Below, in pieces: positions 3,543-15,499 of a stretch of DNA of 20,313 bases. The translations under genes and the position numbers were made by a program. Within the stretch, counting starts at the first letter, position 1. The number at the start of each line of letters is the position of its first letter. The notes under the pieces were generated by a model. The model was not told the DNA's origin and searched no databases. It worked only from the letters and a program-made list of their open reading frames with translations. The stretch spans positions 1 to 20,313 of IMG/VR virus record IMGVR_UViG_3300045421_000141. One strand, 5' to 3'. Source of the stretch: a virus.

Positions 3543-6423
3543 AATAACCAAACCTATAAGCAAGGCAATAAAAAGTGTTACTAATTTTGTAAGTAAAGCT
3601 TTTAATTCAGTTATAACTTGGTTAGTTCCAAAACCTAAACTACCTAACTTTGGTGGCAACACTTATGAAGGTGCAAAAGGAATTTTAGTTAATCAAGATT
3701 CTAATAACGCATCTATTCCTATTGTTTACGGTGAAAGAAAAATAGGAATTTCTAGGGTCTTTGTTGAAAGTTCAGGTTCTGATAATATAAATCTTTATAT
3801 TGCAGGGATACTTTGTGAAGGAGGAAATGGTGGTATTGAATCTGTTGAGGAAATTTATGTTGATGATAAACTTGTAACTTGGAGTGGTGTTTTATCTAAT
3901 GGAACAGTAAGGACAGTTAATAGTTCTGATACAAATTTTTTTAAAGATGGTGCAAGTTTAATATCTGTTCAAGCTTTTTATGGTTTAGATAATCAATCAG
4001 TTTCTTCTATTTTAGATGAAAGCACAAACTGGACTTCAGATCATAAGTTATCTGGTGTTGCTTATCTTGCATTTAAATTTACTTGGAATCAAGATGCTTT
4101 TAGTAATTTACCTGATATTAAAGTTATAATTAAAGGTAAAAAAATTTATGATCCTAGATTAGATAATAATAAAGGTGGTTCAGGCCCACATGATGAAGAT
4201 GATTCTACAACTTGGACTTATTCAGATAACTCAGCTTTAATTCTTTTAGATTATTTAAGAAACAGCAGATATGGAAAGGGATTACCGAATGATGCGTTTG
4301 AAACAAACTATGATTCATTTAAAAATTCAGCAAATGATTGTGATACATTAGTAACTCCTTATTCTGGTGGAACTGATATTAAAATATTTAGAACAAATGC
4401 AGTCATAGATACATCACAAAAAGTAATAGATAATGTAAAAGATTTATTAGCACCAATGAGAGCATTATTTACTTATACGCAGGGTAAATATAAATTAATT
4501 GTTGAAGGTATAGGTAATTCTGTTTTAAGTTTAAATTCAAACAATATTATTGGTGGTATAAAAATTTATGGTGAAAAGAAAAATACTAAATACAATCGTG
4601 TTATAGGAACTTTTGTAAATCCAGCAAAAGATTGGCAAGAAGATACTATTTCATTCCCACCAGCTGACGATGCTTCTTTACCAGTAGAAGATCAATATGC
4701 AACTTTATTGGCGGAAGATAATAATACTCCATTAGATGGTAATTTTGAATTTAGAAATATTACAAATCCATATCAAGCAGAAGAACTTTGTGAAATTATT
4801 TTAAGAAGATCAAGAAATGCTTTGGGAGTAGAAGTTAATTGTACTTCAGAAGCTTTAAATTTATCAATAGGAGATATAGTTGATTTAACTTATTCAACAG
4901 GTGGATTTAGTGCAAAACCTTTTAGAGTAATGAATATTGCTATTAATGCAGATAGTACAGTTGAATTAGAATTAACTGAACATCAAAATTCATTTTACAA
5001 TTGGGCTTCAAAAACAGAAGCCCCTGAAATATCTGATACTGTATTACCAAATCCTTTTTCTGTGTCCGCTCCAGCTTCTGTTACTTTAGATGACCAACTT
5101 ATTGAGTATTCTGATGGCGTTGTGATAACTGCTCTTGATGTAATAATTGGTGCTTCTACTGATAACTTTGTAGACTTCTATCAAGTAGAATATAAATTAA
5201 GCACCGATGCAACTTTTCAGATATCAGGTCAAGTTAAAGGATTAAATCATAGAATCTTAAATGTTATAGATGGATTAGATTATAACGTAAGAGTCAAAGC
5301 TATTAACACATTAGGAGTATCTTCAACTTATACTTCTGCGACAAGAACTATTGTAGGTGGATTATTACCACCTAGTGATGTTGAAGATTTTGCTTGTAAC
5401 ATTATTGGAAGAGATGCTCATTTATCATGGACGCAAATATCAGATTTAGATTTGGCTTATTATTCAATAAGGTACTCTACACTTACAACTGGTGCTGAAT
5501 GGTTAAACTCAGTTTCTCTTGTTGAAAAAGTTGCTAGACCTGCTACGACATGTACTGTCCCCGCTCGTATAGGTTCTTATCTTATAAAAGCATTTGATAA
5601 AAATGAAAATGCTTCATCTAATGAAGCAATTATCTCAACTAATATTTTAGAGATTGGAAACTTTAACGCTATTGTTACACAAACAGAATCACCTACATTT
5701 TTAGGAACTAAAACTAATGTTTTTGTTGATGATAACGATTCTTTAAGATTAGATTCCTCTGAACTTTTTGACTCTGCTATTGGCGACTTTGATTCTGCTA
5801 GTGGTTTATTTGATTCTGGAATATCTACATTTGATTTAGTTTCTGAAGGAAGTTATCTATTTTCTTCTCCTATTGATATTGGTGGAACTTATACTGTTCG
5901 TGTAACTGCTTCAATTACTCAAGGAGTAGATAACATAGATAATCTTTTTGATAGTGCTGTTGGATTATTTGATGATGGTGCTTCTAACTTTGATGGAGAT
6001 TCTCCTGCTAACTGTAATGCTCATATAGAAATAGCTACTTCTACTGATAATGTTACATATACTTCATTCAGAAACTTTGTAGTTGGAGATTACACAGCTA
6101 GATTTTTTAAATTTAAACTTATAATGACTTCCTCTGATTTAGCTTCTACTCCAGTTGTATCTGATTTATCTGTTTCAATAGATGTTGAAGATACTATACA
6201 AAGCGATAATGATTTAACTAGTGGTGTTGGAACTTTTACTGTAACATTTGACAAGCCATTTTATTCTGGTAATTATGCTATCGGTATTACTAATCAAGGA
6301 ATGGCTTCTGGAGATTTTTATACATTGAGTAATAAAACTATTAATGGATTTAATATTGCTTTTAAAAATAGTAGTGGTACAGGAGTAAGTAGAACATTTG
6401 ATTATATTGCGAAAGGTTTTTAA
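3535..6423 (+). CDS. Tail tip / host specificity protein J-like
   Basis: 962 residues, the largest gene in the window. The N-terminus has a short basic amphipathic stretch (KPISKAIKSVTNFVSKAF), then a GTA-gp15/lambda-J-like core (IPIVYGERKIGISRVFVES and NLYIAGILCEGG, about residues 60-100). It continues into receptor-domain-type beta repeats, with regions resembling fibronectin type III folds at about residues 510-720 (for example DFYQVEYKLS and LSWTQISDLDLAYYSIRYS). Near the C-terminus, residues 743-767 and 803-820 contain the repeated motif LFDSAxGxFD. The protein forms the central tail tip that contacts the cell. Its start overlaps the acyltransferase homologue by 8 bp. The final 120 residues end in a domain with GVGTFTVTFDKPFYSG that resembles a short receptor-binding or structural module. 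The general identity is confident; the domain limits are approximate. Confidence 0.85.
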   Translation: MGKITKPISKAIKSVTNFVSKAFNSVITWLVPKPKLPNFGGNTYEGAKGILVNQDSNNASIPIVYGERKIGISRVFVESSGSDNINLYIAGILCEGGNGGIESVEEIYVDDKLVTWSGVLSNGTVRTVNSSDTNFFKDGASLISVQAFYGLDNQSVSSILDESTNWTSDHKLSGVAYLAFKFTWNQDAFSNLPDIKVIIKGKKIYDPRLDNNKGGSGPHDEDDSTTWTYSDNSALILLDYLRNSRYGKGLPNDAFETNYDSFKNSANDCDTLVTPYSGGTDIKIFRTNAVIDTSQKVIDNVKDLLAPMRALFTYTQGKYKLIVEGIGNSVLSLNSNNIIGGIKIYGEKKNTKYNRVIGTFVNPAKDWQEDTISFPPADDASLPVEDQYATLLAEDNNTPLDGNFEFRNITNPYQAEELCEIILRRSRNALGVEVNCTSEALNLSIGDIVDLTYSTGGFSAKPFRVMNIAINADSTVELELTEHQNSFYNWASKTEAPEISDTVLPNPFSVSAPASVTLDDQLIEYSDGVVITALDVIIGASTDNFVDFYQVEYKLSTDATFQISGQVKGLNHRILNVIDGLDYNVRVKAINTLGVSSTYTSATRTIVGGLLPPSDVEDFACNIIGRDAHLSWTQISDLDLAYYSIRYSTLTTGAEWLNSVSLVEKVARPATTCTVPARIGSYLIKAFDKNENASSNEAIISTNILEIGNFNAIVTQTESPTFLGTKTNVFVDDNDSLRLDSSELFDSAIGDFDSASGLFDSGISTFDLVSEGSYLFSSPIDIGGTYTVRVTASITQGVDNIDNLFDSAVGLFDDGASNFDGDSPANCNAHIEIATSTDNVTYTSFRNFVVGDYTARFFKFKLIMTSSDLASTPVVSDLSVSIDVEDTIQSDNDLTSGVGTFTVTFDKPFYSGNYAIGITNQGMASGDFYTLSNKTINGFNIAFKNSSGTGVSRTFDYIAKGF

Positions 6424-6436
6424 TAATAGATAGATA

Positions 6437-7972
6437 ATGGCTCAACACGATTTTGTAATTGGCAACCAAAGTTTTCCTAGCTTTCGTTCTGATCTTAATG
6501 ACTTTTTAAATGCAGTAAGAACATTACATTCAGGTACATCTTTACCTTCAGGAGCGGTAGCTGGAACAATGTGGCTTGATACTACAAATGCCACAATACC
6601 ACTTTTAAAATATTATGATGGAGCCGATAATATTACTCTTGCTACAATAAATCATACAACAAATACAGTTACTTTTTCTAATGTTTCTTCAGATTTAGTA
6701 AATGATACAACTCCTCAACTTGGTGGAAACTTAGACGTTCAAACCCATTCAATTGTATCTACATCAAATAATAATGTAAAAATTTATCCTAGTGGTTCTG
6801 GTGTTTTAGAAGTAGGTGGTTCAACAAATTCTGGAAGAATACAATTAAATTGTGAAAATAACTCTCATGGTATTAAACTTGCTTCACCACCACATTCTGC
6901 TGGTCAATCTTACACTTTAACTTTTCCATCAACAGCACCTATAGCAGGAAAAGTTCTACAAACAGATGGTTCAGGTAATTTATCTTTTGAAACTGTTAGT
7001 GGTGCAACTCCTTATGGATTATTTAGAAAAGTTGACCCAACAATTGTTGCATGGACTAGAACAGGCAATTTTACAATGACAACTTCAACTACAATTTATG
7101 TAGAAGTAAATGGAAGTGTTTTAACTATTGCTTCAGGAACTTCTATAACCATGCCAAGTCCAACTGTTGGAACTGATTATGCAATCTGGTGTTCAACTGC
7201 TGGTGCATTATCCGCAACAACTGACCACACAACTCCACCTTCTGCTAATGCTAGAAAATTAGGTGGCTTTCATTATGCTAATGGACAAAATGCAACTGGC
7301 ACCTCTGGTGGAAATACCACTCCTGACATTAATCAATATTCATTATGGGATTTAAAATTTAGACCAGCTTGTGCTGACCCAAGAGGTATGACATTAGTTG
7401 CTGGCAATTTTTGGGCAGATATTTATTTAACAAACACTCTTCCTGATACTTATGGAACTTCTAAATACAATGTTACAATAGCTGATGGTTCTTCTCCACC
7501 AAAAATACCTTCAAAATTTGGTGGTAATGGTTCAACGGATTATGGTTCTTATACATGGTGGGAAGCAAATGAATTACTATCTGCTTATGGAAAAAGAAGT
7601 CCAAGTTATCAAGAATTTTCTGCTTTAGCTTATGGCACTACTGAAGCTACTTCAAGAGGAACTGACCCAGCTTCAACAACTTTAACAGCAACAGATGATG
7701 ATTTTACTTCTAAATGGGGAATTATACAATCCACTGGTTGTATGTTTATTTGGGGTTGTGATTTTGGTAGTGGTGCGTTGGGTGCTAGTTATGTTGCAAA
7801 TACAGAAGGAAGAGGTTCTACTTATCAATTGTCTAATGCCGTGGAACTGGGTGGGGAGTGGAGTTTTATGTCTAATTCTGGTTCTCGTAATTCTGATTGG
7901 AGGTATTCTCCTACGGCTTCTAATAGCAGGCTTGGTTCTCGTGGCGTCGCCGACCATTTACAACAGGATTAA
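6437..7972 (+). CDS. Tail fibre with C-type-lectin-like tip; 3' part lies in an invertible segment
   Basis: 511 residues. Residues 1-182 are the constant part: a fibre attachment domain (SLPSGAVAGTMWLDTT is a common phage fibre motif) and repeats ending AGKVLQTDGSGNL. Residues 183-511 are encoded inside the invertible segment. The last 45 residues (GGEWSFMSNSGSRNSDW to GSRGVADHLQQD) follow the pattern GGxW...SGSR...W...SNS...RGVxDHL of C-type-lectin/formylglycine-enzyme-like folds. That fold is typical of phage receptor-binding tips, including Mtd-like DGR targets. The DNA of this last part uses GC-rich codons (for example 7942-7960) unlike the rest of the window. This points to recent acquisition or to a DGR-style variable repeat. 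The next gene starts 2 nt after the stop. It is the receptor-binding fibre in the present orientation. Confidence 0.85.
   Translation: MAQHDFVIGNQSFPSFRSDLNDFLNAVRTLHSGTSLPSGAVAGTMWLDTTNATIPLLKYYDGADNITLATINHTTNTVTFSNVSSDLVNDTTPQLGGNLDVQTHSIVSTSNNNVKIYPSGSGVLEVGGSTNSGRIQLNCENNSHGIKLASPPHSAGQSYTLTFPSTAPIAGKVLQTDGSGNLSFETVSGATPYGLFRKVDPTIVAWTRTGNFTMTTSTTIYVEVNGSVLTIASGTSITMPSPTVGTDYAIWCSTAGALSATTDHTTPPSANARKLGGFHYANGQNATGTSGGNTTPDINQYSLWDLKFRPACADPRGMTLVAGNFWADIYLTNTLPDTYGTSKYNVTIADGSSPPKIPSKFGGNGSTDYGSYTWWEANELLSAYGKRSPSYQEFSALAYGTTEATSRGTDPASTTLTATDDDFTSKWGIIQSTGCMFIWGCDFGSGALGASYVANTEGRGSTYQLSNAVELGGEWSFMSNSGSRNSDWRYSPTASNSRLGSRGVADHLQQD
6943..6983 (+). repeat. Left inverted repeat (41 bp) of the fibre inversion cassette
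   Basis: This 41-bp sequence is present again, perfectly, in reverse complement at 9015-9055. After one mismatch (6984 against 9014) a further 5 bp match, so similarity covers 6943-6989 against 9009-9055. It encodes fibre residues up to the SGNL at 179-182, in the same reading frame in both copies. It shows no obvious internal dyad and does not match the Gin/Hin 26-bp crossover sites that I can recall. Confidence 0.95.
7842..7969 (+). other. Possible DGR-type variable region at the fibre 3' end
   Basis: The last ~128 bp of the fibre gene encode a lectin-like tip with many Asn/Ser/Arg/Tyr positions between invariant-looking Gly, Trp and Arg residues. It ends in a GC-rich stretch (GGCGTCGCCGACC at 7942-7954) in an otherwise AT-rich gene. 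In diversity-generating retroelements the variable repeat sits exactly at the 3' end of such a lectin-fold gene and ends in a GC-rich initiation-of-mutagenic-homology sequence. No template repeat and no reverse transcriptase are seen in the window, so this is only a candidate; an undiversified lectin domain explains the protein equally well. Confidence 0.35.
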
Positions 7973-7974
7973 AT

Positions 7975-8208
7975 ATGAAAATTATAAACACAAGACAAGA
8001 TTTAAACTCAATTCAAGGAACTTCTGAATACGATAATTTTATTAATTATCTAAAAGGTTCAATTACACAAAGAAGAGATATTCAAGTTTATCCTGAAAAT
8101 TATGGAAAGCCAGATTACACAGGTGAGAAATTAGAACCTATTTGGGAAACCTTTGAGGATACTTCTGTTATAGAGAGATTTGGATTTACTAAAGAGGAAT
8201 TAGAATAG
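7975..8208 (+). CDS. Small fibre-associated protein (possible chaperone) of the current orientation
   Basis: 77 residues, acidic. It begins MKIINTRQDLNSIQGTSEYDNFINYLKG and ends TSVIERFGFTKEELE. The opening pattern 'I.TR.DL..I.GT.EY..F...LKGS' and the closing 'IERFGFT' recall small proteins found after fibre genes in other phages, which I cannot name further. It starts 2 nt after the fibre stop and lies wholly within the invertible segment, in the same place as gene U relative to S in phage Mu. A role in assembly or attachment of the current fibre tip is inferred. Its 3' end overlaps the convergent 116-aa gene by 20 bp. Confidence 0.7.
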   Translation: MKIINTRQDLNSIQGTSEYDNFINYLKGSITQRRDIQVYPENYGKPDYTGEKLEPIWETFEDTSVIERFGFTKEELE

Positions 8209-8539
8209 GTCTTTTTGGAAATGTAGTTGCATTAACTTTAGCAACTGTATCTAATCCTTCAGTAATATCTCTTAATGCTTGTCTATAAGTAATCCAATTA
8301 GCTTTGTCAGTTACTGGACTATCCGCAAGTACAACATAATCGCTATCAATTAATAATTTATTTCTTTTGGCTCGTAAATTATCTAATGCCATATCCAATT
8401 CTACTTGTGGAAGTATAGCTAGTATCTCTTCTTTTGGTATTGGTGGTGTGCCATTTTCCCAAGTGATTTGATTAATGTCATCTCCGCTTACACTTACTTG
8501 TGCTGTTGGATTTATTTTTAATATTGCTTCTATAATCAT
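8189..8539 (-). CDS. Alternative fibre accessory / tail assembly chaperone-like protein (XkdW/DUF4376-type)
   Basis: 116 residues. It has an N-terminal domain (MIIEAILKINPTAQVSVSGD, then INQITWENGTPPIP) followed by a helical domain with the pattern 'LRAKRNKLLIDSDYVVL' and 'WITYRQALRDITEG'. These resemble phage tail fibre assembly and XkdW-like proteins, in which R..RN.LL..SD...D......YRQ.LRDI is conserved. It starts inside the stop of the alternative fibre half (ATGA, 8536-8539), so the two form one translational unit. It is the leftward partner of the 77-aa gene and would be expressed only after inversion, unless another promoter reads it. Confidence 0.75.
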   Translation of the reverse strand: MIIEAILKINPTAQVSVSGDDINQITWENGTPPIPKEEILAILPQVELDMALDNLRAKRNKLLIDSDYVVLADSPVTDKANWITYRQALRDITEGLDTVAKVNATTFPKRPILIPL

Positions 8540-9054
8540 ACTGCTATCTCCATTACTGTTATTGTTGATGCACTTCTTACTACGTTTGAACTATCTGAGT
8601 CAGAATTACCAGTACCAACAAAAGAAATACCTCCATGAGAGTTTCTAGCTTGAACTTTATAAGTAGTAAAAGACGTTGTTGCTGGACTATCTAAAAATGA
8701 AGATGCACATATTAAACCTGCACCTGAGTCAGCATTATAAATATTTGAAGATATTATTCCAAGTGTACGAGAACCAGCAGAATCACCAGCGTTAATAACA
8801 GTTGCACCTCTTAACATTCTAAATTGAGGATAGCCAGTTGCACTATTTGCACCAAATTGAAATGATGTAGTAATAAATATTTTATTAGATGCAGAAGATG
8901 GAGTTATTGAAACCGATAATCCAGTAACATCTGTGAATGATGTTGAACTTGTTGAAAATGTATCAGTCTTTGCTGTTGATGAAACCTGCCTCACCATACC
9001 ACCTGTACCAAAACATAAATTACCTGAACCATCTGTTTGTAGAACTTTTCCTGC
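8536..9054 (-). CDS. Silent alternative C-terminal half of the tail fibre (headless)
   Basis: The open frame on the minus strand runs from the inverted repeat (AGKVLQTDGSGNLCFGTGG) through an Ser/Thr-rich fibre domain (STAKTDTFSTSSTSFTDVTG, then GLSVSITPSSASNKIFIT) to the C-terminus VMEIAV. The domain is a common terminal module of marine phage fibres. An in-frame TAA lies directly upstream (9057-9055) and no start precedes the repeat. The only internal ATG (8997) lacks a clear ribosome binding site. After inversion, residues 1-182 of the active fibre would be followed by 159 residues of this half, giving about 341 residues. It is best read as the stored, unexpressed receptor-binding tip rather than a decayed gene: the frame is intact. 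Confidence 0.85.
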   Translation of the reverse strand, partial: AGKVLQTDGSGNLCFGTGGMVRQVSSTAKTDTFSTSSTSFTDVTGLSVSITPSSASNKIFITTSFQFGANSATGYPQFRMLRGATVINAGDSAGSRTLGIISSNIYNADSGAGLICASSFLDSPATTSFTTYKVQARNSHGGISFVGTGNSDSDSSNVVRSASTITVMEIAV

Positions 9055-9055
9055 T
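9015..9055 (-). repeat. Right inverted repeat (41 bp) of the fibre inversion cassette
   Basis: Perfect reverse complement of 6943-6983. It keeps the AGKVLQTDGSGNL reading frame on the minus strand. It marks the outer boundary of the cassette: beyond it, rightward, the sequence changes to non-fibre DNA with small plus-strand genes. Confidence 0.95.
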
Positions 9056-9714: not shown

Positions 9715-10413
9715 ATGAATAAAAGAATCTTAGTAATATCAGATTTGCATATTCCATATCATAGACCAGATTCCTTTGAGTTCCTAAAAGAAATAAAAAA
9801 ACAATTCAAACCAGATACGATCGTAAATATAGGTGATGAGATTGATTGCTCTGCACTTGCATTCCATGACCATAATCCAGATTTGCCTTCTGCTGGAGAT
9901 GAACTTATAAGATCAAAAGATTTTATAAAAGAATTAGAATCAATATTTCCCAAAATGACTTTGCTAGACTCAAATCATTCTAGCTTAGTTTATCGTAGAG
10001 CAATTAAATCTGGAATACCTAGAGGATATTTAAAAGAATATAATGAATTTTTAAATGTCAAAAATTGGAAGTGGGTTGATAATTTGACTTTAACTCTTCC
10101 GAATAAACAAAGATGTTTTTTTACTCATGGAATATCTGCCGATGTTGTAAAAGTTTCTCAAATAAATTCTATGAATTGTGTGCAGGGGCATTTTCATTCA
10201 AAATTTTCGCTTTCATTTTGGGCTAATAGTGATTGTTTATTTTTTGCTATGCAAGTAGGTTGTTTAATACAACAAACTAGCATGGCTTTTACTTATTCTA
10301 AAAACTTTAAAACTAAATTTATTATGGGTTGTGGAATGATTATAGATTCTACTCCAAGACTTATGCCAATGGTACTTAACAAAGAAGGCAAATGGATAGG
10401 CAAGTTAGTTTAA
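9715..10413 (+). CDS. Calcineurin-like metallophosphoesterase
   Basis: 232 residues with all metal-site motifs of the family in order: SDLH (D10, H12), GDEID (D41), NH (N87-H88), THG (H138) and GHFH (H159, H161). This is a complete dinuclear metal centre, so an active phosphoesterase is likely. Substrates of phage members are mostly unknown; nucleic acid ends, cyclic nucleotides or phosphoproteins are possible. Its 3' end overlaps the endolysin gene by 22 bp, which couples them in translation, though the functions need not be linked. No signal peptide, so it is cytoplasmic. Confidence 0.9.
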   Translation: MNKRILVISDLHIPYHRPDSFEFLKEIKKQFKPDTIVNIGDEIDCSALAFHDHNPDLPSAGDELIRSKDFIKELESIFPKMTLLDSNHSSLVYRRAIKSGIPRGYLKEYNEFLNVKNWKWVDNLTLTLPNKQRCFFTHGISADVVKVSQINSMNCVQGHFHSKFSLSFWANSDCLFFAMQVGCLIQQTSMAFTYSKNFKTKFIMGCGMIIDSTPRLMPMVLNKEGKWIGKLV

Positions 10414-12363: not shown

Positions 12364-12927
12364 ATGTTAGTAACACAAAACAACGAAGCTTTTGATCTTA
12401 GAAAAAAAATAGATTCTAAGTATCAAGAGGTAAATGATATATGGAATGATATTAAAATTCCATATATTACAAGAGAAGAAGCAGAAAAGGCAAAAAACAT
12501 ACTGATTAGAAAATTTGGTGCTAAGAAATTTTTACCACCATCACATTCAGCTATGAATCCAAAAGCTTATAGAGTTTGGAAACCTTATATCTGTTTAAGT
12601 GGAGACCCAACTACTTTATGGAAAGGTTGGAGAAGGTTAATTCATTCTCTATCTCATAAAGTTTATAGAAGAAGGTTTCCACAAAGATGGTTTGACCATT
12701 CTTATCAACAAGCCGAACTTGAATTTGAAATGTGCAAGTTTGTAATTGATAGTGGTTGGTTAAATGGCACTCTAAAATCTAAAGTAATTATTTTATCTAA
12801 AGATGAAATAAGAAATAAGAAATTAGAGAAATACAAAATCTTAATAAGTAAGTGGGAAAGAAAATTCAAAACTGCCACAAGCTTTATTAAGAAATATAAT
12901 AAAAAAATAAAGTACTTAACTAAATAA
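12364..12927 (+). CDS. Metallopeptidase-like protein with HxxxH...H arrangement
   Basis: 187 residues, basic. The core at about residues 86-134 (WKGWRRLIHSLSHKVYRR, then FPQRWFDHSYQQAELEFE and FVIDSGWL) has H94 and H98 in HSLSH and H112 followed by E117. This order is like the zinc site of SprT/peptidase-like proteins (HExxH...H), but with Ser in place of the catalytic Glu. Related proteins in proteobacteria and phages, as I remember them, share the 'W..L.H..SH....R..P....H......E' pattern. It may bind metal without being a peptidase. The lysine-rich C-terminal tail (from about 150) could bind nucleic acid. It is transcribed alone from the regulatory region at 12069-12363 and converges on the leftward operon. 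Confidence 0.6.
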   Translation: MLVTQNNEAFDLRKKIDSKYQEVNDIWNDIKIPYITREEAEKAKNILIRKFGAKKFLPPSHSAMNPKAYRVWKPYICLSGDPTTLWKGWRRLIHSLSHKVYRRRFPQRWFDHSYQQAELEFEMCKFVIDSGWLNGTLKSKVIILSKDEIRNKKLEKYKILISKWERKFKTATSFIKKYNKKIKYLTK

Positions 12928-12949: not shown

Positions 12950-13471
12950 TTAATTAAGCTGTATTTCAAAATATTCTATTCCATCATTTGGAAACTTTTT
13001 TAATTCTGATTTTGGCAATAACTTTAATATTTGATCTACACTTTTAAAAATAATCTTATCAGCTAGAGGGAAACAAATAGTGTATTTAGTATAATAGTTT
13101 GTAAAAGATTGCTCAAAATAAATATATCTTTTTATATCTCTTACTTTTATTTTAGCTAAAGTCTTTGCATTCTCATAAGTTGCATTCTTTAATTCAACAA
13201 AGAACTGCTCTTGCTTATGTGCTTCTTTAGGTGCGTAAACGAAGTAATCTGGGAAACTTTTGATAAGCGTTGGGAGTTTGGCAAACAAAGGTATAATACT
13301 TTCAGCGAAAGATTGAGAATCACTAACAGCATTGAGACCAAGCTTCCGATACAAATAGCCACGACTAAGGCAATACTGAATGAAACGATCTTCAACCAAA
13401 TTAAGATAATTTTTTGACCTATTTTCATAAGATTCATGACTAAAATTTTCAATGTATTTTTTTTCATTCAT
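12950..13471 (-). CDS. PD-(D/E)XK-type nuclease-like protein
   Basis: 173 residues. D75 in FPDYFVYAP and E93-x-K95 in FFVELKNA give the PD-(D/E)XK order with 18 residues between, flanked by beta-like strands. E27 in an N-terminal helix could be the usual extra acidic residue. The downstream part (IKVRDIKRYIYFEQSF and YTKYTICFPLADKIIF) fits the core fold. Such proteins in phage early operons are Holliday-junction resolvase- or VRR-NUC-like nucleases. It is the last gene of the leftward operon; its start directly abuts the stop of the gene before it. Assignment is from the motif only. Confidence 0.6.
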   Translation of the reverse strand: MNEKKYIENFSHESYENRSKNYLNLVEDRFIQYCLSRGYLYRKLGLNAVSDSQSFAESIIPLFAKLPTLIKSFPDYFVYAPKEAHKQEQFFVELKNATYENAKTLAKIKVRDIKRYIYFEQSFTNYYTKYTICFPLADKIIFKSVDQILKLLPKSELKKFPNDGIEYFEIQLN

Positions 13472-14269: not shown

Positions 14270-14764
14270 TTAGTTATTAAAATTAATTTCAAATAAAAAC
14301 TTGTAATCTTTTATTTTCAAATCAATTTCTTCTTTTGTAACATCTATTTTACCAGATTCAATACCTGATTTCAGCAAAGCCATTACAAACATATATTCAT
14401 CTTTATTAAATGGTTTTTTTTCAACTTCAAAACCATTTTTAGAATCCTTTGCCATTTCTTGTAATTGTGCTTCTAATTCTTCAGGATTAAAGCTAGTATC
14501 TGGTTTATTGTCAGAAGGTAATTCTTGCATCATTGGTGTTTTATCTGGTTTTGATTGCACAAATAAATTACCACTTTTTTTACCCTCCTGGACAGCAACA
14601 GATAGCTTCTTACCCTTTTCTAAAAAGCTAGGTTTAACTGCTGACCACAAAATTATCTTTTGATCACCGATTCCAAAAGTATAATTTGGGTATTTGTTTG
14701 GACTTCCGTCCTTCATAAGACGATTATCATAAACATATTTTACTACACCTTGTATGTTTGCCAT
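14270..14764 (-). CDS. Possible OB-fold single-stranded DNA binding protein
   Basis: 164 residues. The N-terminal 70 residues look like a five-stranded beta barrel (ANIQGVVKYVYDNRL, YPNYTFGIGDQKIILWSAV, GKKLSVAVQEGKKSGNLFV), as in OB folds. A linker rich in Pro, Asp, Glu and Gln and a helical C-terminal part follow. The C-terminus is not the acidic tip of true SSB. It starts directly after the RecB-like nuclease stop, with GGAG 7 nt upstream. A pairing of an OB-fold protein and a RecB-like nuclease fits a phage recombination or replication module, which supports the guess. The fold is inferred by eye. Confidence 0.5.
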   Translation of the reverse strand: MANIQGVVKYVYDNRLMKDGSPNKYPNYTFGIGDQKIILWSAVKPSFLEKGKKLSVAVQEGKKSGNLFVQSKPDKTPMMQELPSDNKPDTSFNPEELEAQLQEMAKDSKNGFEVEKKPFNKDEYMFVMALLKSGIESGKIDVTKEEIDLKIKDYKFLFEINFNN

Positions 14765-15499
14765 TTATTTCTCCTTTTTTGTTAAGTAGCGATACATTTT
14801 TAAGCAAGAGATCGCTACATCATCTTGCATTTCTTTTATTAGAAATTCCTTAATATTTAGTTTACCTTCTTTGGTGCAATTAACTATGATTCCTTTATTA
14901 ACATCAATGCCTAGTTCTTCTTTAATACAAATTTTATAAAGATAGATTTGAACTAACATAGAATCTCTAATTCCTGATGATGATTTCCAATCATAGATAA
15001 TATATTCCCCAGATTTTGTTTTAAATAAAGCATCAAGAGTTCCAGTAAATTTATTTACACGACTTAAAACTTTGCGTTCTGTATATACAATTTCTAAACT
15101 TTCTTGTTTATCAAACCATTCTTTAAATTTATTAAATGATTTTTTAATTTGCTCGTTGTGAATTTCAGGAACTATTTTTTTATGAATATAATCTTCTATA
15201 AGATTATGAACCTGAGAACCAACTAAACCAGCATCACTCATTGTTTGGTTTGGTGCTTTTTTAATTTGATCTGCGATTTTAGCTATTTCAATTTCATCAT
15301 AGCTAACTCCTGCTTTGACTAATTTTTTAAATTCTTCTGAGCATACTTTAGCTGACCAGGCTCCGATAACGTTTGCTGGAGTCAATAACTTGCAGATTGT
15401 TGTTGCACTTGGCAACTGCTCATCATTCCAAAAGTATTGGTGTAGAACTGGATCAAAAAATAAAGTTTCTTGACCATTGTATAATTTTATTTCTTGCAC
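14765..15499 (-). CDS. RecB/Cas4-like PD-(D/E)XK exonuclease
   Basis: 244 residues with the motifs of the PDDEXK_1/Cas4-RecB nuclease family in order: GSQVH (G94, H98), E141 before the core, FTGTLDAL (G153, D156), YDWKSS (D170, K172) and QIYLY (Q184, Y187). This is the complete catalytic set for a metal-dependent DNA exonuclease. In phages these usually make 3' single strands for recombination, or process replication intermediates. The start is GTG at 15499, preceded by GGGGAAGG. No Cas genes, repeats or helicase accompany it, so it is a phage recombination nuclease and not a CRISPR component. There are no four Fe-S cysteines of the Cas4 type. Confidence 0.85.
   Translation of the reverse strand: MQEIKLYNGQETLFFDPVLHQYFWNDEQLPSATTICKLLTPANVIGAWSAKVCSEEFKKLVKAGVSYDEIEIAKIADQIKKAPNQTMSDAGLVGSQVHNLIEDYIHKKIVPEIHNEQIKKSFNKFKEWFDKQESLEIVYTERKVLSRVNKFTGTLDALFKTKSGEYIIYDWKSSSGIRDSMLVQIYLYKICIKEELGIDVNKGIIVNCTKEGKLNIKEFLIKEMQDDVAISCLKMYRYLTKKEK

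Follow-up and report, generated by a model that had tools for sequence, protein, structure and literature searches.

A putative invertible receptor-binding cassette with an Mtd-type fibre tip in a small pelagiphage-like phage, and its single and nested relatives

The tail-fibre locus described here lies in the virus record IMGVR_UViG_3300045421_000141 of IMG/VR, of which positions 1 to 20,313 were analysed (hereafter: the window); the source phage is small, aquatic and related to Pelagibacter phages. The fibre gene runs into a 2.1-kb segment (6943-9055) that is enclosed by inverted repeats and contains two convergent sets of genes, each consisting of a fibre tip and an accessory gene (Table 1). 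We consider this segment very likely to be an invertible receptor-binding cassette, a judgement that covers the cassette and not the enzyme that would turn it. The arms of the repeat (6943-6989 and 9009-9055) are identical in 46 of 47 bases and perfectly so over 41 (6943-6983 and 9015-9055). A chance origin can be excluded: 100 first-order Markov simulations of the window produced no exact inverted repeat longer than 19 bp. The left arm is coding, AGKVLQTDGSGNLSF, and translation passes through each arm in one common frame, AGKVLQTDGSGNL, with the codon register GCA GGA AAA GTT... common to the fibre gene in the left arm and to the minus-strand open frame in the right one. The latter frame (9054-8536) is 172 aa long, headless, and uninterrupted between the right arm and its stop codon.

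Table 1. Features of the fibre locus, candidate helper genes, and DGR stretches of two related phages (positions refer to the window unless a phage is named; DGR, diversity-generating retroelement; VR, variable region; TR, template repeat; RT, reverse transcriptase; ORF, open reading frame; ssDNA, single-stranded DNA)
Feature	Position	Strand	Remarks
Expressed tail-fibre gene	6437..7972	+	ORF, 511 aa; constant N-terminal part 6437-6982, then ON Mtd-type tip
Left repeat arm (W)	6943..6989	+	Coding, inside fibre gene
VR of Mtd tip	7838..7949	+	DGR-manner variation versus L004
Accessory gene of Mtd tip, 77 aa	7975..8208	+	Homologues 3' of avd-TR-RT in DGR-bearing relatives
Tail assembly chaperone of silent tip	8189..8539	-	Phage_tail_APC PF16778, E 1e-12; phrog_4912 tail fiber assembly, E 3e-14
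Silent headless alternative fibre tip	8536..9014	-	Open from right arm to stop; phrog_6942 and PDB 9efk matches
Right repeat arm	9009..9055	-	Inverted-repeat match to left arm
TAA	9055..9057	-	Flank plus first arm base; directly upstream of silent frame
Probable OB-fold ssDNA-binding protein	14270..14764	-	AlphaFold2 pLDDT 77; adjoins exonuclease; candidate helper of inversion, role inferred
PD-(D/E)XK exonuclease, phrog_298	14765..15499	-	Candidate helper of homology-directed inversion, role inferred
L006 DGR stretches	L006:3058-3170 and 3586-3698		Mtd-type DGR
L018 DGR stretches	L018:7335-7443 and 7855-7963		Mtd-type DGR

Reversal of the segment in silico yields a single in-frame ORF of 341 aa (169 constant residues plus 172), followed by its own chaperone gene, while the displaced Mtd half then begins immediately behind the TAA. 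We propose that recombination from arm to arm would exchange the Mtd tip and its accessory gene for the second tip and its chaperone with the frame kept, and would leave the displaced set headless behind a stop codon; the TAA is thus predicted to silence whichever tip set is displaced. The original prediction, made from the sequence of the window, had recognised the 41-bp perfect repeats around 2.1 kb, the entry of the fibre gene and of the minus-strand half into the arms in one frame, the small accessory gene behind each half with the two sets converging, and a frameshift-free product of 182 plus 159 residues (which equals 169 plus 172), all of which agrees with the arms, codon register and ORFs described above. 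Its description of the second half as headless holds for the frame that opens from the arm, with the correction that this frame contains an internal ATG at 8997.

The tip joined to the fibre in the present orientation (ON) matches the PDB structure 1yu4 (Mtd) with E 2e-95 over residues 195-508 and the Pfam family mtd_2nd with E 3e-15, and over these 314 residues it is truly homologous to the major tropism determinant (Mtd) that Bordetella phage BPP-1 carries. The constant part of the fibre (residues 25-187) resembles a cyanophage fibre (PDB 8i4m). The displaced tip (OFF) belongs to another fibre-tip family (phrog_6942 tail fiber, E 1e-11; PDB 9efk orf22, E 3e-19), and its relatives are found ON in sister phages, e.g. 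L196, L206 and L214. The two tips had been predicted to be very different, which is correct insofar as they represent separate families, and the one described as lectin-like can now be specified as the Mtd homologue. Their homologies suggest that a swap of tips may affect the host range. In silent tips the rate of nonsynonymous substitution (dN) is lower than that of synonymous substitution (dS), yet within a family this does not separate ON tips from OFF tips, and we do not use this result as evidence.

Relatives of the locus were collected with the neighbouring tail protein as the query, which yielded 80 loci, and then by a scan for inverted repeats and by exact searches. Within the fibre genes of these phages we found a coding repeat of 26 bp, B (CTTCAAACAAATGGAAGTGGGGTTTT), which was seen in 33 stretches and which, in every stretch that yielded two copies, forms an inverted pair with a spacing of 1.36-1.65 kb, as well as a repeat of 30 bp, A (TTCTTAAAGACAGATGGTGCTGGGAATTT), the pairs of which are 2.56-2.74 kb apart and enclose the B pair. 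There are 21 distinct sister cassettes with B, at least 10 of which also have the outer A repeat nested around it, and phages with both A and B carry four tips with a small gene for each. All 83 copies of the A and B sites run on as open frames (75-266 codons). A third, unrelated coding repeat, C (TDFEFLPIDVSLGRCQRYY, 52-57 bp), lies in a different place of the same fibre gene (5516-5572 and 6586-6642 in L184) and bounds tip segments of ~1 kb in L184, L185 and L191. In L453, which has a different head module, arms identical in 42 of 42 bases (969-1010 and 2513-2554) enclose related tips, which suggests that phages of different types exchange the cassette or its tips. L185 and L198 are 94-98% identical in the flanks, whereas their cassettes are unrelated, with the C repeat in one and nested A and B in the other. 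L406 was considered as a full pair of a B variant and rejected: its arms agree for 29 bp, GGT being present in each, and diverge just after, and it is counted solely as a shorter variant arm.

The sister cassettes provide the evidence that such segments invert, which consists of comparisons between phages rather than of reads from one population. In L174 and L171 the sequence to the left of the segment aligns as far as the end of A, and that to its right does so from where the other A begins; the two ends of the sequence between the A copies align in inverted orientation (208 bp at 95.7% and 243 bp at 98.4%). The same flipped state as in the comparison of L174 was found in L168, L202, L260 and, with a variant of A, in L262. 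For B, the orientation can be read from its flanks: just outside the repeat the same residues are encoded by different codons in each tip class (TTG TCN TTC versus TTR AGY TTT). The B pairs are heterotypic in 21 of 21 distinct cases, with one copy of each flank class, and the class joined to the fibre stem is one in 11 phages and the other in 10 (L265 and L270, in which orientation is not assignable, are excluded from the counts). This argues for inversion, which preserves one copy of each class, as independent replacement would not. In a phylogeny built from the constant part of the fibre (19 tips) the orientation state requires 8 changes, compared to an average of 6.6 in shuffles; thus, orientation carries no phylogenetic signal in the sister cassettes, and neighbours that are 98.5%, 97.6% and 97.0% identical are nevertheless opposite in state. 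These comparisons show that both orientations of the A and B segments exist among the sisters, with breakpoints inside the repeats, and that the switch is real on the evolutionary time scale in these relatives; flipping would then be fast relative to divergence. Contig ends show no clear clustering at the repeats, so that assembly breaks give no sign of mixed populations.

Phages closer to the window reveal exchange of the silent set. L164 is 99.97% identical to the window over 6.6 kb and has the same orientation. L004 and L165, which are contigs from other samples, are ~90-98% identical to the window, with arms that agree in 48 of 48 bases and lie in the same places, and with the Mtd tip ON. 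Their silent tip and chaperone are wholly different, the swapped stretch being limited to window positions 8216-9002, and the family to which this silent tip belongs is found ON in L168, L202 and L259. Two observations concern genes outside the cassette. The downstream metallophosphoesterase gene (window 9715-10413 versus L004:4541-5242) is strongly divergent amid ~90-98% identity and shows 66% in tblastn to L165, and it is another apparently exchanged gene. An ORF of 187 aa (window 12364-12927) has only a weak, sub-threshold match to GmtX and no homologue in the relatives compared.

The Mtd tip has a second layer of diversity. The window and L004 are 97.7% identical in the initial 1,400 nt of the Mtd-tipped fibre gene, and the VR differs at 20 of 32 positions that correspond to template adenines and at 6 of 80 others. 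The sister phage L006 carries a full DGR at the fibre locus, comprising the VR, Avd (NF033474, above the cut-off), TR and RT, and 21 of 32 template adenines are changed in its VR, against 0 of 81 other positions; the same adenine-only pattern is seen in L018 and its relatives, with TR and RT present in L018. The Mtd stop codon of the window is followed directly by the accessory gene, with avd, TR and RT missing at this place; a search of the 20-kb window recovered no template repeat, and RT is absent from the list of window ORFs. The window shares with BPP-1 the homologous tip, a target of the Mtd/C-type-lectin kind with an adenine-position-variable VR at its C-terminus, and differs from it in the lack of avd, TR and RT at the tip and in the position of the Mtd tip within an invertible cassette. 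The pattern of substitutions suggests that the VR has been diversified in the manner of a DGR, the machinery of which is either a recent loss, supplied in trans, or encoded in the part of the genome that the window does not cover.

No dedicated enzyme for the inversion could be recognised. Serine recombinases (PF00239; control matches in 10 of 14 genomes) and tyrosine recombinases (PF00589; controls matching in 14 of 14) are absent from 32 related records. One of these, G021 (identical to L215; 32,570 bp, ~97% complete), carries a B pair and, as judged by synteny with G027, lacks only the scaffold gene and a bit of the capsid gene; no invertase is recognisable among its ORFs, and PHROGs and Pfam searches with its ten unassigned proteins were negative. 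Only the tips and chaperones are confined to cassette-bearing phages, and no candidate invertase was found among genes peculiar to them. Likewise, a review of the window ORFs found no serine invertase, with ~13 kb of its own genome unseen. Searches of bacterial and archaeal genome contigs gave no match to site B and no relative of gpJ, and therefore tie no host or prophage to these phages. The arms differ in sequence between lineages (W in the window, A, B, C, and those of L453), but partner arms match; in L262 a GGG-to-GGA change in A is present in both arms. A pattern for the A peptide that allows nearly all codon choices matched 120 of the collected loci, among which 104 are single-copy, mostly with other codons and in other phages, while the remaining 16 are inverted pairs (some contigs being counted twice) with identical arms in all cases. 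Partner arms that agree whatever their sequence favour homology-directed exchange. Compared by eye only, A, B, W and C have no recombinase core in common; the one shared element, a coding ACARATGG, is confined to A, B and W. Nor was a clear dyad, as in serine-invertase crossover sites of about 26 bp, visible by eye against hix and gix sequences. We propose, with about an even chance of being right, that the crossover is a homology-directed exchange between short identical arms, carried out by the phage exonuclease and ssDNA-binding protein or by host functions; the best Foldseek matches of the latter phage protein are mostly OB-fold, albeit weak (E 0.003-0.05).

The closest cultured relatives, Pelagibacter phages HTVC202P, 026P, 111P and 112P (gpJ identity 42-53%, 31.6-32.5 kb, similar gene order), have all tip genes in one direction and no inverted set; from this kinship the host is presumably a Pelagibacter-like (SAR11) bacterium. 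Our literature search found no description of such cassettes in pelagiphage-like phages, which is no proof of absence. The original prediction compared the locus to the Mu G (Gin) and P1 C (Cin) segments, with a site unlike those of Gin and Cin. The arrangement does work alike, with an invertible segment, a constant fibre N-terminus and two convergent C-terminal tips with assembly genes; however, no serine invertase is found adjacent or recognisable in relatives, the arms are 26-57 bp long and vary by lineage, the structural module is pelagiphage-like, and the sisters nest two segments. The sister phages resemble the p15B Min and bifidophage Rin shufflons in presenting more than two tips through several inversions and in keeping silent tips open. 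Yet Min has a serine invertase and Rin a predicted tyrosine invertase at the locus (PMC6109161), whereas the sisters nest two separate repeat pairs instead of repeating one site and have no enzyme that we could find. We do not assign the window cassette to the serine-invertase or the Rin families, because neither an element-encoded serine recombinase nor a tyrosine recombinase at the locus was found, even though the invertible tip segment typical of the former is present. For the absent enzyme, the nearest precedents appear to be two. A recombinase-less locus at tRNA-Met in bifidophages also has inverted segments without a flanking recombinase, for which an enzyme in trans is suspected (PMC6109161), but its site is of 8 bp and its gene function is unknown, as opposed to the present loci, which concern fibre tips, have longer arms and occur in dozens of phages. 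In the pneumococcal spnIII hsdS locus, repeats of 85 and 333 bp invert without CreX, while a 15-bp repeat needs it; these inversions need neither an enzyme encoded at the locus nor any known site-specific recombinase, as is proposed here, though in a bacterial restriction-modification locus (PMC6620402).

Several observations weigh against the reading of the segment as an invertible cassette or against homology as its mechanism. The flipped window cassette was not found: L164, L004 and L165 are all Mtd ON, and an exact search of IMG/VR with the 30-bp core of the window arm returned only L164, L165 and L166, none flipped. The window covers ~20 kb of a ~33-kb genome, and its 173-aa protein (12950-13471) has a profile without a PDB match and an AlphaFold2 model (from nine sequences; pLDDT 40) that is unusable, so that not every possible enzyme is excluded. 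Moreover, nearly all carriers have A and B in exact form though 3 mismatches were allowed, and in 12 collars 0 of 55 site positions vary versus 38 of 190 between the sites, a contrast overstated because the collars were picked by exact match. Such near-invariance over divergent phages also fits a sequence-specific recombinase, host-supplied or unrecognised, acting on short repeats in the way of Gin/Cin or Rin. This is a serious contender, to which we give slightly less than an even chance: the breakpoints are exact, orientation is ~50:50 regardless of phylogeny, and an invertase in trans has been proposed for the bifidophage locus (PMC6109161). Against it stand the absence of recombinases from the 32 records, the lineage-differing arms (A, B, W, C), which would demand several specificities, and the presence of the same variant in both partner arms. 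On balance, homology-directed exchange is somewhat more likely than a site-specific recombinase of this kind.

It is unlikely that there is no programmed switch at all, and that rare inversion is combined with tip exchange between phages at linker repeats, the OFF set being a seldom-expressed reservoir. The OFF modules are indeed swapped between close relatives, as in the window and L004, and the unrelated cassettes in the similar flanks of L185 and L198 agree with such traffic, but opposite states at 97-98.5% identity in nearly equal proportion, consistent heterotypy and the intactness of all frames suggest frequent flipping, and independent replacement would also produce pairs of the same class. 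We regard it as very improbable that the minus-strand genes are an independently expressed second tip and chaperone, with repeats that merely reflect a shared fibre motif. Phage fibres commonly contain the peptide motif and the minus-strand frame does have an ATG, yet elsewhere the motif is mostly single and differently encoded, whereas cassette arms are identical in nucleotides, and members of a single tip family are ON or headless depending on the sister phage. An assembly chimera that joined the tips of two strains in inverted order, a concern raised with the original prediction, is hardly credible: the near-identical L164 ends 31 bp past the left arm, but the architecture recurs with regular spacing in contigs from many samples, including L004 and L165 with their matching arms, and the repeats are no hotspot of contig ends. 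The preferred reading of the segment as an invertible cassette agrees with part of the predicted phase-variable host-range switch, namely the architecture, the in-frame swap, a site unlike those of Gin and Cin and, from the suggested comparison with relatives, sister cassettes in both orientations, while a flip of the window's own cassette and an invertase are the parts that were not found. By analogy, the window cassette would flip by the same process as its sisters, and the swap would alter host binding.

So far, fibre-tip inversion has been known from a small number of phages, which have an invertase of their own. The loci described here belong to dozens of uncultured phages, kin to those of very abundant bacteria, with single or nested inverting tip cassettes and no visible invertase. 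We tentatively generalise, with somewhat less than an even chance of being right, that small pelagiphage-like phages widely maintain single and nested two-level tip switches without a dedicated invertase, through homology exchange between mutually identical coding repeats, with one of the tips DGR-shaped. If this is true, they would offer a testable case of receptor switching through short-homology recombination in streamlined phages, and an enzyme-poor, simple route by which an abundant kind of phage could change its binding, which would help to account for tip regions that look shuffled among relatives. A single gene would then unite two of the best-known tropism switches, inversion and Mtd/DGR hypervariation.

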